In this document: positions 3,340 to 8,751 of the stretch, piece after piece
How the letters are laid out: every line of letters starts with the position of its first letter
How positions within the stretch are numbered: the stretch's first letter is position 1
Origin: Bacillaceae bacterium
GTDB taxonomy: Bacteria > Bacillota > Bacilli > Bacillales_A > Planococcaceae
Direction: 5' to 3'
Length of the DNA: 8,751 nt
NCBI GenBank assembly: GCA_030149685.1
Contig: JASLGI010000081.1
Location: forward strand, 1 to 8,751
Notes under the pieces: model-generated
Seen by the model: the letters and a program-made list of their open reading frames with translations, nothing else
Told to the model about the DNA's origin: nothing
Database searches by the model: none
Program-made: the position numbers and the translations under genes

Positions 3340-4125
3340 ATGAGTAAAAAAAATAATCAATTACAAAAAGAACAATTATCTCAAAAACAATGGATAGACA
3401 AAGCACAAAAAGCAAAACATGATTTAAAACAACATCACTCATCACAAACGAAAAAACCTTGGTATAAACGATGGACATTTTGGATAGTTGCTTTACTTAT
3501 TTTAGGTATTATAGGGGCTCTAAATGAAGAGGATAATTTTGCAGTTGAAAATGAAAAACAAAAAAATCCCCCTGTTCAAATAGATAATGAAAATAATGAA
3601 AAAGATGAAAAACAAACGAATGAGAAAGAAGAAATTGCTACAAAGAGAGAAGATATAGTAGAAGATGATGTTCCATTAGAATATCGTTCTGCTTTAAAAG
3701 TAGCAGAACGGTATTCAAATACCCTTTATATGTCGAAACAAGGGATTTATGATCAACTTGTTTCTGATTATGGTGAAAAGTTTCCGGAAGAGGCCGCACA
3801 ATATGCGATTGAGCACCTTGATGCCGATTGGAATGAAAATGCTGTGAAAAAAGGGCAAAATTATGCAGAAACGATGCATATGTCAAAACAAGGTGTCTAT
3901 GATCAGTTAATCTCTGATTACGGAGAGAAGTTTACACCAGAAGAAGCACAGTATGCAGTTGAGCAACTTGATGTCGACTGGAATGAAAATGCCTTAAAAA
4001 AAGCGCATAGTTATGTAGAAACGATGAGTATGTCAAAACAAGGTGTCTATGATCAATTAATCTCTGATTACGGAGAGAAGTTTACACCAGAAGAAGCTCA
4101 ATATGCGATTGATCACTTAGAATAA
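3340..4125 (+). CDS. Membrane-anchored protein with three Ltp-type repeats
   Basis: A 261-residue protein. A Lys/Gln-rich N-terminus (1-45) is followed by one transmembrane helix at about 46-61 (TFWIVALLILGIIGAL). There is no lipobox cysteine. A highly charged Glu/Asn/Lys linker (62-112) leads to three tandem 50-residue repeats starting at 125, 175 and 225, the last ending after 37 residues. Each repeat contains MSKQGxYDQLxSDYGEKF, then a QYAxxxL helix, then the D.DWNENA.KK linker, the pattern of the Ltp family (PF07553). The founding member, from Streptococcus thermophilus phage TP-J34, is a surface lipoprotein that blocks DNA entry of incoming phages. The repeats here should lie outside the membrane. 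Whether this protein protects against phage is inference. AAGGAGGGG sits just upstream of the ATG, and a strong terminator follows. Confidence 0.88.
   Translation: MSKKNNQLQKEQLSQKQWIDKAQKAKHDLKQHHSSQTKKPWYKRWTFWIVALLILGIIGALNEEDNFAVENEKQKNPPVQIDNENNEKDEKQTNEKEEIATKREDIVEDDVPLEYRSALKVAERYSNTLYMSKQGIYDQLVSDYGEKFPEEAAQYAIEHLDADWNENAVKKGQNYAETMHMSKQGVYDQLISDYGEKFTPEEAQYAVEQLDVDWNENALKKAHSYVETMSMSKQGVYDQLISDYGEKFTPEEAQYAIDHLE
3712..4122 (+). repeat. Three tandem 150-bp coding repeats (Ltp units)
   Basis: Units begin at 3712, 3862 and 4012; the last is cut short by the stop codon. Units 2 and 3 are nearly identical in DNA: 3880-3947 and 4030-4097 differ at one base in 68. Unit 1 is clearly diverged at synonymous sites and reads KFPEEAAQ where the others read KFTPEEAQ. 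This points to a recent duplication of the second unit. Confidence 0.9.
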
Positions 4126-4126
4126 C

Positions 4127-4160
4127 AAAAACCCACTCGTTTATGGTCGAGTGGGTTTTT
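4127..4160. terminator. Bidirectional terminator between Ltp gene and recombinase
   Basis: A perfect 13-bp inverted repeat (4127-4139 with 4148-4160), core ACCCACTCG/CGAGTGGGT, has an 8-nt loop with A-tract and T-tract ends. It starts 1 nt after the Ltp gene stop and touches the stop codon of the converging recombinase gene, so it should serve both. Confidence 0.92.
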
Positions 4161-5272
4161 TATAATTGCTCGAAAAAAGTCTCCCACGAGTGAATCGCAT
4201 GACGTTCTTTCGCGAAGATTTTTTCTAAATAAATCATTGTTGTATCAATCCGTTCGTGTCCTAACGAGCGCATAATATCATATACATCAACGCCACTGCG
4301 GTGACTAATAATTGCAAATGCATGTCGAAATGTGTGTGGTGTTAATTTCACCGAGTTTTTTCCAAGTAGATTTGTTGGAAGTTTGCTTAACTCTTTATTC
4401 ATAAATTGAGAGAAATATGACGGTGAGTAATGCGATCCTCTCGATGTAGGAAAGAGCGGACCTTCTTCAGTTGCAGGGAACTCAAGGCCTCTCAATGCGC
4501 GAAATGTTCGAATAGCTTCAAATGTTTCTTTTCGCAGCGGAACTTCTCGACGTTTATTCCCTTTCCCTGTAATCGCTAAGTAATAGTTGTTATGAATCGT
4601 ATCTTTATAAACATCTGTTGTTTTCAGAGTACAAAACTCTGCATTGCGCATACCTGTTGTCGTTAATATGAGAATGATCGCTTCCATTAAAGGATGATTC
4701 ATTGAACGGAATGTCCGAAGCAAGGTTTGAATATCGGATGGGCCGAGGTCCCGATTTGGTCGATCATCTTTTCGAACAGTAGCCGTTCGAAAGCCTTCAT
4801 GAATTGGTCGAGCGATATATTCAACATCGTACAGAAATTTAAAGAATGATGACAAAATATTCGTCTTTCTCTCTAATGTCGCTTTTGCGTATGAACCATT
4901 TTCTTTAACGTACGGACTATCATAAGCGAGCCACTGTTGGTAACGACGTAAATGACGTTTATTTAATGATTTCCATAATGAGTGTTCTTTTAATTGTAGA
5001 TCTAATCCGATTTCTTCTCCATATTGCATCATATAAGTAATACATTGCGCAATTTCCATTTCATACTCTCGAATCGTCCGTTTGGATCGGTCATTTTCTC
5101 GATGTAAATGTTTCGGTGCGTAAAGAAACCATTGAACGACTTCAATATCAGTAAAATGCGTAAATCCAGGTAAATCAAGACGTTCGGCTTCATCATATTT
5201 TTCTTCTAATTCACGCAAAGAAGCTTGTTGAATGATGAGCGCTGTTTCTCTTTTTTGTATATCGTACTTCAA
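4160..5272 (-). CDS. Tyrosine recombinase / integrase
   Basis: A site-specific DNA recombinase that cuts and rejoins DNA through a phosphotyrosine link. Numbered from an in-frame GTG at 5281, the protein has 373 residues. It has an N-terminal coiled region (about 1-35), a core-binding SAM-like domain (about 45-155) and a catalytic domain (about 175-370). All catalytic residues are visible: R212 (TTGMRNAE), K240 (ITGKGNKR), H316 and R319 (PHTFRHAFA), H342 (SLGHERIDTT) and nucleophile Y351 (MIYLEKIF). It is longer than XerC/XerD (about 300), with extra sequence at the N-terminus, resembling integrases of mobile elements. I prefer the TTG at 5272 (370 residues) because the GTG at 5281 lies inside GAAGGAAGGTG, which then sits about 8 nt before the TTG. 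No tRNA lies nearby. The upstream gap is crowded with repeat elements that may be its sites. Confidence 0.93.
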   Translation of the reverse strand: MKYDIQKRETALIIQQASLRELEEKYDEAERLDLPGFTHFTDIEVVQWFLYAPKHLHRENDRSKRTIREYEMEIAQCITYMMQYGEEIGLDLQLKEHSLWKSLNKRHLRRYQQWLAYDSPYVKENGSYAKATLERKTNILSSFFKFLYDVEYIARPIHEGFRTATVRKDDRPNRDLGPSDIQTLLRTFRSMNHPLMEAIILILTTTGMRNAEFCTLKTTDVYKDTIHNNYYLAITGKGNKRREVPLRKETFEAIRTFRALRGLEFPATEEGPLFPTSRGSHYSPSYFSQFMNKELSKLPTNLLGKNSVKLTPHTFRHAFAIISHRSGVDVYDIMRSLGHERIDTTMIYLEKIFAKERHAIHSWETFFEQL

Positions 5273-5340
5273 TTTTTGCACCTTCCTTCATTTTGTAGTG
5301 TACAGAGTATTAGAAAGAAAAACAAGTATCTCTTCACACA

Positions 5341-5364
5341 TTAGTTTACATAATAATATTATAT
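5341..5364 (+). repeat. Dif-like element A beside the recombinase gene
   Basis: It contains AGTTTACATAA (5343-5353), the reverse complement of the XerD-binding arm TTATGTAAACT of the Bacillus/Staphylococcus dif site. The flanking 24 bp match element C (6748-6771) in inverted orientation at 23 of 24 positions, and the first 14 bp match element B (6298-6311) in direct orientation. The opposite arm does not clearly match the XerC half. Confidence 0.6.
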
Positions 5365-5389
5365 AATTTAATGCTTATTAAAAAGGTTT

Positions 5390-5414
5390 CATGAAAACTG
5401 TATTCGTTTTCATG
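5390..5414. repeat. Perfect 9-bp inverted repeat with 7-nt spacer upstream of the recombinase
   Basis: CATGAAAAC (5390-5398) and GTTTTCATG (5406-5414) flank TGTATTC. This geometry is that of a tyrosine recombinase core site: two inverted arms around a 6-8 nt crossover region. It lies about 120 bp from the recombinase start. It has no T-tract, so it is not a terminator. It could instead be an operator. I saw no second copy in the window. Confidence 0.5.
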
Positions 5415-5456
5415 GATTTTCCCTATTCTTTTCCCTAGTTTTATTCGCATAAGTGG

Positions 5457-5473
5457 TGTACATTAGATGTACA
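5457..5473. promoter_or_regulatory. Operator-like palindrome TGTACAT-TAG-ATGTACA
   Basis: A perfect 7-3-7 palindrome lies 53 nt upstream of the ATG at 5527. Its right half overlaps a weak candidate -35 (TGTACA, 5468-5473) paired with CATAGT (5492-5497) at 18 nt. A further TGTACA lies at 5299-5304, just upstream of the recombinase start. A dimeric repressor controlling the divergent pair is a plausible reading. Confidence 0.45.
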
Positions 5474-5526
5474 GACCTGTTCATGCTTCTGCATAGTAAA
5501 GGGACAGACGAATGGAAGGGAATAAG

Positions 5527-6087
5527 ATGAAAGATTTCAAAGTAAATGATATCCAGCACGGGATGCTGGAAGTAACGTTTAATATTGATGGTGTACCTTA
5601 TGCGCTGTATCCAACAGCAGCAACAAATGCACTTGGAGATTTAGTATCTGCTCTCGCAGCGGTTCACCCTTTATGTGATACGACAAAATGGAGTTTTGAA
5701 AAGTCGTATCCAGCAAACTACGTCGTTTGGGATCAAAATGCGATCATTACAGAGTGGAAGTTTACACTTGAAGGGGATACGTTATCGATTCGTATGCAAG
5801 ACCAAGCGAAAGGTATTGGCTATAATACATCTCGTCACGTATTGCATGAAACGACATTAAAAGTTGATCTAACTAACTTCTCAACGATGATCGTTCGTGA
5901 AATGGACCGTATTATTAAAGAGTATGGTATTTTAGGGTATCGTCAACATTGGCAAGAGCATACATTTCCTATCGATAGTTATCTTGCATTAAAACAAGCG
6001 ATGTTAAAAGATCGTTCATTTGATGTGAATAAAGAAGAACAAACATCACTTGATGAAGAAGTAGCGATTTTACTCGCTGAAATTTAA
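5527..6087 (+). CDS. Uncharacterised 186-residue cytoplasmic protein
   Basis: I cannot name this protein. It has no signal peptide or membrane helix and looks alpha/beta. The N-terminal half has beta-rich text (MLEVTFNIDGVPYALYPTAA) followed by NALGDLVSALAAV. The middle is KWSFEKSYPANYVVWDQNAIITEWKFTLEGDTLSIRM. The C-terminal half has a helix around MIVREMDRIIKEYGILGYRQHW and ends acidic. The order 'YxLYPT..ALGDL..AL', a W-rich strand pair, then 'EYGxxGYRxxWxxxxFP' recalls a widespread family of small bacterial proteins of unknown function, some of which I associate with toxin-immunity loci; this is weak. The ATG at 5527 has GGAAGGG at 5514-5520; an in-frame ATG at 5512 (AAAGGG upstream) would add 5 residues. 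It is divergent from the recombinase and bracketed by dif-like elements. A strong terminator follows. Confidence 0.82.
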   Translation: MKDFKVNDIQHGMLEVTFNIDGVPYALYPTAATNALGDLVSALAAVHPLCDTTKWSFEKSYPANYVVWDQNAIITEWKFTLEGDTLSIRMQDQAKGIGYNTSRHVLHETTLKVDLTNFSTMIVREMDRIIKEYGILGYRQHWQEHTFPIDSYLALKQAMLKDRSFDVNKEEQTSLDEEVAILLAEI

Positions 6088-6129
6088 CAAAAAGCGCTTT
6101 TCTACATTTTTGTAGAAAAGCGCTTTTTG
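6088..6129. terminator. Terminator after the 5527 gene
   Basis: A perfect 19-bp inverted repeat (6088-6106 with 6111-6129) has a TTTT loop, an AAGCGCTTTTCTAC core and T-tract ends, starting at the first base after the stop codon. Near-symmetric ends make it able to work in both directions. Confidence 0.92.
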
Positions 6130-6293
6130 TATAGAAATAATTTTTTGTTTTTAATGTCTCCTTCAAAAGTACGTAATGTAGCATCTTTCTACTGAGAACG
6201 GAATTTTCCTTCATTAGACAATCTCTTTACTAACTATAATGTTACACACACAATGTTATTTGAACAATGTTTAAATGACATATCTTTTACAAC

Positions 6294-6311
6294 ACTTTTA
6301 GTTTACATAAT
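6294..6311 (+). repeat. Dif-like element B
   Basis: ACTTTTAGTTTACATAAT is repeated exactly in inverted orientation at 6758-6775 (element C), with 446 bp between the copies. Its last 14 bases also match element A at 5341-5354 in direct orientation. It contains the 11-bp XerD-type arm. No second arm is obvious on its AT-rich right side. Confidence 0.6.
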
Positions 6312-6584
6312 TATTTTATTTATTATATTATCTATTTTACATATGATTATCTGTTAAATATACTTGGACGATTAATTAAGGTTGCGCAAACAGATTTAAA
6401 TTTTGTGACAACGAGAACTTGATACATACGATGAAGAAAAGAGAGAGTTGCGAATTTTTCAAACAATAAATTATGTGGATCAGTAAGGTTAGTCGTGTGA
6501 AGTGAGCTTCTCTTTAGATTATTGAGATTACATGAGAAAGCGCACAATTTTAAACTGTTATATTTAGATATATTAATCAAACAC

Positions 6585-6633
6585 ATTATATATGACCTAA
6601 ACAAATGGAACCTTTGTTTAGGTCATATATAAT
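6585..6633. repeat. Perfect palindrome, 21-bp arms and 7-nt loop
   Basis: Arms 6585-6605 and 6613-6633 are perfectly complementary around the loop TGGAACC, with a GACCTAAACAAA core continuing outward into alternating A/T. The arms are much less GC-rich than those of the terminators in this window and no proper T-tract follows on either side, so a terminator is not the best reading. It could be a miniature inverted-repeat remnant, a protein-binding or cruciform site, or a structured RNA end. Confidence 0.65.
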
Positions 6634-6747
6634 CTTTTGAAACTTACATATGTTTTTTAAAACATGTTGAATATATATTATTTTTAAACAGTGTTTATTT
6701 CTCTTCGTCAAATAAATTATACAGATGATAATTACATTAGTCTTTTC

Positions 6748-6775
6748 ATATAATACTATTATGTAAACTAAAAGT
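6748..6775 (-). repeat. Dif-like element C (inverted)
   Basis: On the minus strand, bases 6771-6748 match element A at 23 of 24 positions, and 6775-6758 match element B at 18 of 18. The plus strand reads TATTATGTAAACT, the same as the XerD side of the B. subtilis dif site, preceded by CTTTTCATATAA, which resembles the XerC side only loosely and with altered spacing. Confidence 0.6.
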
Positions 6776-6787
6776 ATGTTACAACAC

Positions 6788-6804
6788 AATCATTGATAAT
6801 GATT
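6788..6804. promoter_or_regulatory. Fur-box-like palindrome
   Basis: AATCATT-GAT-AATGATT is a perfect 7-3-7 palindrome. It contains GATAATGAT, one full arm of the classical Fur box. It lies between a dif-like element and the adhesin terminator, with no gene start close by, so it may be fortuitous. Confidence 0.25.
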
Positions 6805-6850: not shown

Positions 6851-8751
6851 TTACGGTAATATAATTTGTCCGTTTTTAATTAAATCTTCGATCGTAATCT
6901 TTTGATCGAATTCCCCTTTTAATGTGATTAAATCAGCTGTTTCATAGTCTTTCCCAAGACCGTCACGGTCGATTTGGATCGTTATACCTTCGTCTTCATG
7001 TTTTACTTTTAAATAGTTTGCAATTGTTTTTTCATTTAAATCTTTTGCTTTAAACATCGCACGTAAGTCAATGCGGTCCGCATCTTCTACTGTGTCTACT
7101 CCGCCGTATGTGAAGTCTACCCATGTGCTATGTTTGTGTCCAGCGAGGTTATCCTCATCGTCAAACACTTGATAAATTAATGTGTCTGAACCTTTTCCAG
7201 TTGTAAATTCAACTTGTTGTTGCTGCTTTAAAATCAAGTCGTTATTTTCTGTTGATTGATCTAACTCGCCGATTTTAATTTCTAACTTAGCTGTTGCTGT
7301 ATTTCCTGATGGGTGAACGAGCATATATTCGAATACTTCTGTTTGACCGACTGATTCTATACGGTTATACGGTTTGTACGTATAATCACCGTTCGTTTCG
7401 ATTTCAAGAACTCCGTAATCTCCTGCCAATACAGTTAATTCACTCTCTCGTTTGTTACGGATATTCATTTCGATTCGTTTAAATGCTTTTACATCACCTG
7501 CTTGTAAATACATTGCATTGTCGGAAGTCTCGTCTTTATGAAGAACTCGATCAACGTGTTTAGCGATTTCCCCTTGCTTATCTCGTACAAAATGTCCTCG
7601 GTCATCTACTTCGAATGTTAAGTAACGAAGTGCATCATCTACCATGACATCATAGCCTTTTACGTAAAGGAGTGTTTTGTCATGTTGCTTTTCATCTGCC
7701 CCTAAGTAGTTGCCTTCAAGTGTACGTAAGTTACCTGACACTTCTTTCGCTCCGCTATATGGAAGTGAATATTCTCCCCATGAAGTAGAAACGACTTCAA
7801 TGTTTCGAATGTACACACGTGGTGTGTTTCCTTCAATACTTGCTTTCGCTTCGACGCGATACGTACCTTTCGGTAACCCTGTGACACGATACTCTGGTGA
7901 TGCATCCCAATCGTTATTGATGACAGATTTTTTCCATTCATGTGCGACTTCTCCAGTGTCAACGTTGACAACTTTCACGTCCATTTCCATATTTTCTTTT
8001 CCGCTTTTCGATAATTCAAATGATAATTCACTATCAGTATCTTGTACGGTAAATTCGTTTGAACGGAAAGTATGGTCTTCTACTCTGCTTGTTCGTTGAT
8101 CAGAGGGGGCTGCTGTCACAACATTGTTTACAGGGTTGACTTGAATCGTCGTTTGTTTTTTGTCATCGGCAGCTTCAACAATTTTTGATTCTTTATTATT
8201 GTCAGCCCATGCGATCGTGTCATGGTCGAGTAAAATACGTAGTGTTCCTTCGTCTGAAGTACCATTTTTCGTATTTTTCGCATGAATTTTGAATTCTTCG
8301 TATTGACCAATATTTTGGCGTTTACTCTCAGGTGCGTAACGATACGTTCCGTCACGCTTTACGTATAGCTTTCCGTATTTTCCTTGAATTTCCGTTTCTC
8401 CGTCAATCGCAAGTGGATGTGTTAAGTTCTCATGGACACCACCTGTCACTGCTTCAATGATTGAAGCCTCAGGATCTTGTCCTTTCGTTGCTCCTTCTTT
8501 CTCGAAGAAGTTTCCTTTAACCACTGCATCTTCAGCTGAATGCGTGTAGTCGTAAATCGTCGCCTCTCGAATATCGAATGGAATACCCGCTGCGAGTGAA
8601 ATACCTGCTGACGGTTCTAGTAAAAGAATGTACTTTCCTTCTTCTAACATACCGACATCAATGTACGTTGGAATTGGAATACCGAGTAATGTTCCAACTC
8701 CTCCTGCACGTGTTGCAATTTTCTTATAGTCTCCGTTTGGTAATTCTTTAT
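6851..8751 (-). CDS. Large Bap-like surface protein, C-terminal 632 residues (5' end outside window)
   Basis: The frame is open to the window edge, so this is the 3' end of a larger gene; the first Met in the window (8650) is not a credible start. Counting from that Met, a VCBS/cadherin-like unit lies at about 43-142 (VKGNFFEKEG, then IQGKYGKLYVKRDGTYRYAP and DEGTLRILL). An immunoglobulin-like domain lies at about 185-290 (LPKGTYRVEAKASIEG). A second VCBS-like unit lies at about 303-462 (VSGNLRTLEG, then LAGDYGVLEIETNGDYTYKP and TATAKLEIKIG). The terminal domain, about 484-598, has GKGSDTLIYQVFDD, DTVEDADRIDLRAMF, IANYLKVK, IQIDRDGLGKDYE and LITLKG, close to the C-terminal type I secretion target domain of Gram-negative giant adhesins such as Acinetobacter Bap. 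There is no LPXTG, sorting helix or visible membrane anchor. A role in adhesion or biofilm matrix is inferred. No codon break was seen. Confidence 0.85.
   Translation of the reverse strand, partial: KELPNGDYKKIATRAGGVGTLLGIPIPTYIDVGMLEEGKYILLLEPSAGISLAAGIPFDIREATIYDYTHSAEDAVVKGNFFEKEGATKGQDPEASIIEAVTGGVHENLTHPLAIDGETEIQGKYGKLYVKRDGTYRYAPESKRQNIGQYEEFKIHAKNTKNGTSDEGTLRILLDHDTIAWADNNKESKIVEAADDKKQTTIQVNPVNNVVTAAPSDQRTSRVEDHTFRSNEFTVQDTDSELSFELSKSGKENMEMDVKVVNVDTGEVAHEWKKSVINNDWDASPEYRVTGLPKGTYRVEAKASIEGNTPRVYIRNIEVVSTSWGEYSLPYSGAKEVSGNLRTLEGNYLGADEKQHDKTLLYVKGYDVMVDDALRYLTFEVDDRGHFVRDKQGEIAKHVDRVLHKDETSDNAMYLQAGDVKAFKRIEMNIRNKRESELTVLAGDYGVLEIETNGDYTYKPYNRIESVGQTEVFEYMLVHPSGNTATAKLEIKIGELDQSTENNDLILKQQQQVEFTTGKGSDTLIYQVFDDEDNLAGHKHSTWVDFTYGGVDTVEDADRIDLRAMFKAKDLNEKTIANYLKVKHEDEGITIQIDRDGLGKDYETADLITLKGEFDQKITIEDLIKNGQIILP

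Follow-up and report, generated by a model that had tools for sequence, protein, structure and literature searches.

The locus considered here, a stretch of 8,751 nucleotides referred to below as the window, raises the question of what three dif-like elements are doing around a gene and next to a tyrosine recombinase, and whether they are the targets of that recombinase, the ends of a mobile or invertible segment, or sites of another kind. Element A lies at 5341–5364 on the plus strand, and its 20-mer AGTTTACATAATAATATTAT at 5343–5362 is an exact match to a XerD-type terminus site found across the family. Element B, a weak copy in direct orientation to A, is located on the same strand at about 6294–6319 (20-mer at 6300–6319, two mismatches), and element C, inverted relative to both, occupies 6748–6775 on the minus strand (20-mer at 6750–6769, one mismatch). 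The repeats are as the earlier note had described them: A (5341–5364) and C (6748–6771) are identical at 23 of 24 bases in inverted orientation, ACTTTTAGTTTACATAAT is common to B and C (18/18, inverted), and A and B have the 14 bases TTAGTTTACATAAT in common in direct orientation. The XerD arm of the Firmicute dif site, TTATGTAAACT when read on the opposite strand, is present in all three at 11 of 11 positions, and the assignment of the elements to Xer biology was also correct. Dinucleotide shuffling of the window, repeated 200 times, never produced a 20-mer match with up to two mismatches or the 12-mer core in three copies, and the three elements are real rather than a product of chance. No Rfam family matched the window at gathering scores.

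The sites termed dif and pdif carry a XerC arm and a XerD arm around a centre of 6–8 bp. At the position expected for the XerC arm, agreement with ACTTCCTATAA was 1/11 in A, 3/11 in B and 4/11 in C, against a mean of 3.3 in the nearby background, so that each element is a XerD half-site without a XerC half-site. This is the make-up of XDS, reportedly described by Karaboja and co-workers in 2021 as the XerD-specific SMC-unloading sites of Bacillus subtilis.

The distribution of such sites was followed across two families of genomes. With at most one mismatch, the 20-mer was found in 190 of the 261 genomes of the Savagea family and in 97 of the 121 genomes of a second family, while the reversed control gave one and three matches, respectively; 71 and 24 genomes were without a site at this threshold. 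Canonical dif, also with at most one mismatch, was present in 117/261 and 45/121 genomes. In 60 sites from other genomes, which had been chosen by the 20-mer itself (exact XerD arm, up to two mismatches overall), conservation fell sharply beyond the 20-mer, to no more than 0.44 bits per column; the extension of the site is a conserved 9 bp that reads ATAATWWTA in most copies.

The sites are polar, with their XerD arm facing dif. Among the matches listed for the Savagea family, 118 of the 127 sites on the same contig as dif (70 genomes) read away from it, the median distance was 91 kb, and 107 sites lay within 150 kb; all sites of a genome followed this orientation in 62 of the 70 genomes, some in four, and none in four. 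This set was drawn from 183 sites entered, covering the listed genomes up to G132 and 32 later ones with dif matches, and it left out G133, the unlisted genomes and most sites of genomes without a dif match. Seven dif matches with unusual spacers were dropped as doubtful; they were the only ones for G175, G176 and G229, and retaining these three genomes gave 119 of 130 sites reading away. Among the matches listed for the second family (74 sites entered, one dif per contig, further dif matches left out), 31 of 38 sites in 26 genomes read away from dif, at a median distance of 151 kb, and half of the 38 were more than 150 kb off. The rule was thus broken, among the matches listed, by 9/127 and 7/38 sites in the two families, and binomial P values for the polarity overstate independence, since the genomes are related. 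Composition skew was considered as a cause of the polarity and set aside as unlikely on the argument that the 20-mer holds one G and one C. A separate observation in the second family concerns the sites within 1.5 kb of dif, all 11 of which lie 0.3–1.1 kb from it, on its XerC side, and read away (G007, G292, G316, G329, G336, G346, G352, G358, G359, G368 and G375).

Two opposed polar groups around dif are also what replication-fork terminators (Ter) form, according to the excerpts of PMC13220808 that were available, and the elements could on this ground be taken for Ter sites of an RTP-type system. A strong RTP gene (E below 1e-37) was found in only 13 of the 261 genomes, with 14 over the curated cut-off, against 190 genomes with sites; therefore, the sites do not need RTP. 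As the core of the site is, moreover, exactly the XerD arm, a role as Ter is considered highly improbable.

The tyrosine recombinase beside the elements (4160–5281, minus strand, 373 aa) has the full active site that had been ascribed to it (R212, K240/K243, H316, R319, H342 and Y351), and it belongs to a family carried by large Bacillales plasmids and by chromosomes, in the latter often near dif. At E ≤ 1e-60, it was present in 27 of the 261 Savagea-family genomes. The sites occurred in 21 of these 27 genomes and in 169 of the 234 without the recombinase (Fisher P 0.65), so that the elements are widespread without it, the first of the outcomes that the earlier note had named as speaking against its reading. 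Conversely, all 11 recombinase-bearing plasmid regions, taken from the 20 plasmid matches listed, were devoid of a site at up to three mismatches. The recombinase does adjoin the elements here, and in seven genomes, Kurthia zopfii (G013) and six others (G002, G003, G015, G197, G199 and G212), it has a site no more than 3 kb away, as would be expected if the elements were its targets. We read this closeness as both being located in the terminus: the recombinase module often sits there near dif, and is for this reason found beside XDS-type sites. Given, in addition, that a different, co-varying repeat tracks the recombinase, there is very little chance that A, B and C are its target sites. At six loci from as many genomes (L003, L004, L028, L135, L136 and L137; three of them Sporosarcina), a XerD-type site was also seen about 25–125 bp past the 3' end of the HTH_17-type gene that belongs to the recombinase module.

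The repeat that does follow the recombinase is represented in the window by R, a perfect 21-7-21 inverted repeat at 6585–6633, between B and C, of which the earlier note made no mention; its inner 29-mer at 6595–6623 reads ACCTAAACAAA-TGGAACC-TTTGTTTAGGT. When the best 11-7-11 inverted repeat with an AAA-N7-TTT core was searched for within 700 nt upstream of the recombinase, pairing of at least 8/11 was obtained in 38 of 51 recombinase loci and in 8 of 146 control stretches, the latter being downstream, largely coding and so less comparable. The 51 loci, some of which come from the same genome, exclude L020 as too short, L034–L047, and the duplicates L140 and L141; the window counts among them as a miss because its R lies at −1342. 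In 23 loci the repeat lies 159–177 nt before the recombinase start, the commonest place being about 165 nt upstream. A matrix built from 14 of these loci gave the window R a score of 33.6 bits at 6595–6623, 1342 nt upstream of the recombinase, in reversed orientation and 28.1 bits in the usual one; the arms being perfect, this difference of 5.5 bits comes from the spacer alone, and the orientation is read from seven spacer bases. Co-variation between the arms in 38 sequences, themselves chosen for having the repeat, was 0.211 compared with 0.060 in shuffles (0 of 500 reached the observed value) and at most 0.053 when the arms were slid against each other.

Similar results were obtained from further copies. 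Among 30 recombinase copies of at least 430 bits in the 261 genomes, the exact consensus pattern was located within 5.5 kb in 18 and at 16 kb in one, and was missing from the contig in 11; bare matches to this pattern also occur in genomes without the recombinase, as do matches to the reversed control. The repeat was found close upstream in 9 of the 11 plasmid regions, and in the plasmid copies from Planococcus and Peribacillus its arms are altered yet remain paired. The family thus shows one gene with one adjacent repeat, the layout of a single-recombinase module, with the two 1.3 kb apart in the window. The 11-7-11 inverted repeat R is likely the recombinase's own site, and one site beside one recombinase, on plasmids and chromosomes alike, is an arrangement that fits dimer resolution and suggests this function for the enzyme. 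Note that a second 11-7-11 inverted repeat (10/11) with other letters lies at 5388–5416, that is, in the usual place of R (about −135).

The recombinase scored below all the NCBIfam equivalog cut-offs to which it was compared: 65.9 bits for XerS (cut-off 267), 105.1 for XerC (335.15) and 94 for XerD (329.6). In 43 of 55 recombinase loci it is accompanied by an HTH_17-type gene, usually divergent (three examples were typed), a count that includes two duplicates and weak or distant matches (down to 21% identity and up to about 7 kb away); such a gene was not found in the window. The plasmids that carry the recombinase measure 89–330 kb. A phage origin of the locus was considered and dropped: the region 5300–6800 had no DNA match in a phage collection, a tblastn search with the recombinase gave 375 phage records (23–31% identity among the 20 matches listed), and viral contigs yielded a single distant relative of it.

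Nine cases could be placed, with the recombinase gene on the same contig as a dif of usual spacer; in seven of them the distance between the two is 2.6–31 kb, and the gene is on the XerD side of dif and transcribed away from it. Relaxed dif matches (two to three mismatches) underlie four of the nine cases (G015, G162, G199 and G117) and hence three of the seven. The two exceptions are G117, with the gene 83 kb off on the XerC side and directed toward a relaxed dif, and G147, with the gene 2.2 Mb off; the nine cases do not count odd-spacer dif matches on the contig of the recombinase, which were present in G034, G110 and G229 (the last about 1.75 Mb from the gene) and additionally in G117. Canonical dif is present in some recombinase-bearing genomes (G001 and G013). 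In four of 20 genomes searched (G197, G220, G222 and G227), the recombinase was found with no dif-like match at up to three mismatches, which may mean that dif has diverged or been replaced there or that the assembly is incomplete. That genomes with the recombinase generally lose canonical dif was considered and is not claimed, since 144 of the 261 genomes have no dif at up to one mismatch in any case.

In Kurthia zopfii (G013), trpBA, the recombinase, three sites and dif follow one another in the same order as in the window; among 47 loci, no other has the trp genes. By this synteny, provided by one genome, the window would lie near dif, with dif expected to its right. With dif there, element C would conform to the polarity rule, and A and B would run against it. 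Wherever dif lies, the three cannot all obey the rule, since A and B are opposite to C.

The unusual position of R bears on two further explanations, in both of which elements among A, B and C would be recombination sites. In the first, XerCD or the neighbouring recombinase would flip the segment between A and C (about 1.4 kb) or between B and C (about 0.45 kb). Such a flip would explain why R stands at −1342 and scores better reversed, whereas in relatives it most often lies about 165 nt upstream; by coordinate arithmetic, the A–C inversion returns R to about −236 in the usual orientation. The near-identity of A and C also speaks for it, and their spacers (ATATTA in A, ATACTA in C) are one base apart, although for this very reason they are not the same. 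At the same time, XerCD recombination is not expected without a XerC arm, and the orientation of R is judged on its seven spacer bases. R is also far upstream in L001 (Savagea), L008 and L022, none of which has sites at up to two mismatches, and L001 none at up to three. The close convergent pairs of G227 and G229, two others that were inspected, agree both in the kind of gene between the sites, thioredoxin-like as judged by eye from the sequence, and in its orientation. An invertible segment is considered unlikely. In the second explanation, which the earlier note had proposed as a pdif-like module mobilising the gene, the gene at 5512–6087 would have been inserted as a cassette via A and B. 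These two are direct repeats 957 bp apart that enclose one gene, and a perfect 20-nt hairpin comes after this gene. Deleting the stretch from A to B would, by the same arithmetic, bring R from −1342 to a position near −385, a distance that falls in the span of those observed in relatives. However, the XerC arms are missing; the sites keep to the terminus and are polar; they are frequent in genomes lacking the recombinase and absent from the 11 plasmid regions that carry it; and homologues of the enclosed gene had a site within about 1.5 kb at 0 of 16 loci. These results do not support the proposal, and a cassette origin appears slightly less likely still than inversion. It is probable that the elements are not pdif sites and that they are not sites of the recombinase beside them either.

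The enclosed gene does lie between A and B, as had been noted; its ORF spans 5512–6087 on the plus strand and encodes 191 aa (186 aa from the start at 5527 given earlier), with no Pfam or NCBIfam match. Homologues were detected in 14 of the 261 genomes, and none among viral contigs. The PDB structures most similar to its model (mean pLDDT, 61.2) were Pur-alpha chains, but query TM scores of 0.28–0.38 are too weak for the protein to be named after them, and when its profile was compared with PDB sequences, the matches did not rise above chance level (best E 0.11). Of the other genes in the window, the one at 6851–8749 (minus strand) encodes the C-terminal part of a large adhesin; its match to the NCBIfam BapA/Bap/LapF adhesin model scores 198.1 bits, over the cut-off of 180, and a type I secretion target domain is present as well. 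Such an adhesin is unusual for an otherwise Bacillales-looking genome. The gene at 3340–4125 (plus strand) encodes a lipoprotein with three Lipoprotein_Ltp stretches (252.7 bits), which are encoded by three 150-bp repeats.

Taken together, we think it likely, with some room left for doubt, that A, B and C are XerD-only terminus sites of the XDS type and that the recombinase is a separate entity acting on R. Under this explanation, XerD alone would bind sites of the A, B and C type without recombination taking place there, and would at these sites unload SMC complexes coming from the origin; both activities at the 20-mers are inferred, and the same pattern would be expected of a different protein bound at the terminus, provided that it recognised the XerD arm. 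The recombinase, for its part, would recombine R and thereby resolve dimers of whichever replicon encodes it, its chromosomal module often residing in the terminus near dif. A broader picture can be offered tentatively, as a possibility that we hold to be somewhat less than even: the recombinase, R and often a divergent HTH protein might form a second chromosomal dimer-resolution system beside dif, shared with large plasmids and placed on the XerD side of dif, pointing away. It would lie among XDS-type sites that are polar, and one terminus would thereby unite SMC unloading and XerCD/dif with a plasmid-type resolvase.

If the polarity of the XDS-type sites is true, SMC unloading by XerD would be directional, and a strongly polar 20-mer, recognisable by its sequence in hundreds of genomes, would make this direction-dependence directly testable. 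The 20-mer would also serve as a sequence marker of the terminus. The recombinase, R and, often, the HTH protein make up a module that can be identified on several large Bacillales plasmids, and the co-varying site makes the substrate of the enzyme testable as well.

Several known systems can be compared with this arrangement. In the pdif modules of Acinetobacter, Xer sites surround a gene, and Xer half-sites around a gene are likewise present here, but with no two-arm sites and no evidence of gene mobility. With the dif of Bacillales, sites of the A, B and C type have in common the XerD arm and the position of the 6-bp spacer, and they differ from it in having no XerC arm, a different spacer and often several copies per genome. 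The excerpts of PMC5357621 describe XerS/difSL and XerH/difH as well as large plasmids on which a recombinase of the plasmid's own is encoded next to its site; the resemblance consists of one Xer-like recombinase adjoining one imperfect inverted repeat. The difSL site is 31 bp long with an 11-bp centre, whereas the R-type repeat is 11-7-11, and the present recombinase also differs from these systems in scoring below the cut-offs of XerS, XerC and XerD and in usually having a divergent HTH_17 gene; a canonical dif, moreover, occurs in some of the same genomes. Finally, excerpts of PMC13220808, PMC10945525 and PMC12322038 state for B. subtilis that SMC unloading at the terminus is carried out by XerD (RipX), and the second of them uses the name XDS; in these excerpts no statement on the polarity of XDS was found. 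The likeness of the present sites to XDS, by description rather than by sequence, lies in the XerD-type half-site, the place in the terminus, as observed for the 20-mer in other genomes, and the independence from a XerC arm and from dif, and the differences lie in the other genera, the conserved 20-mer and the strong polarity relative to dif.
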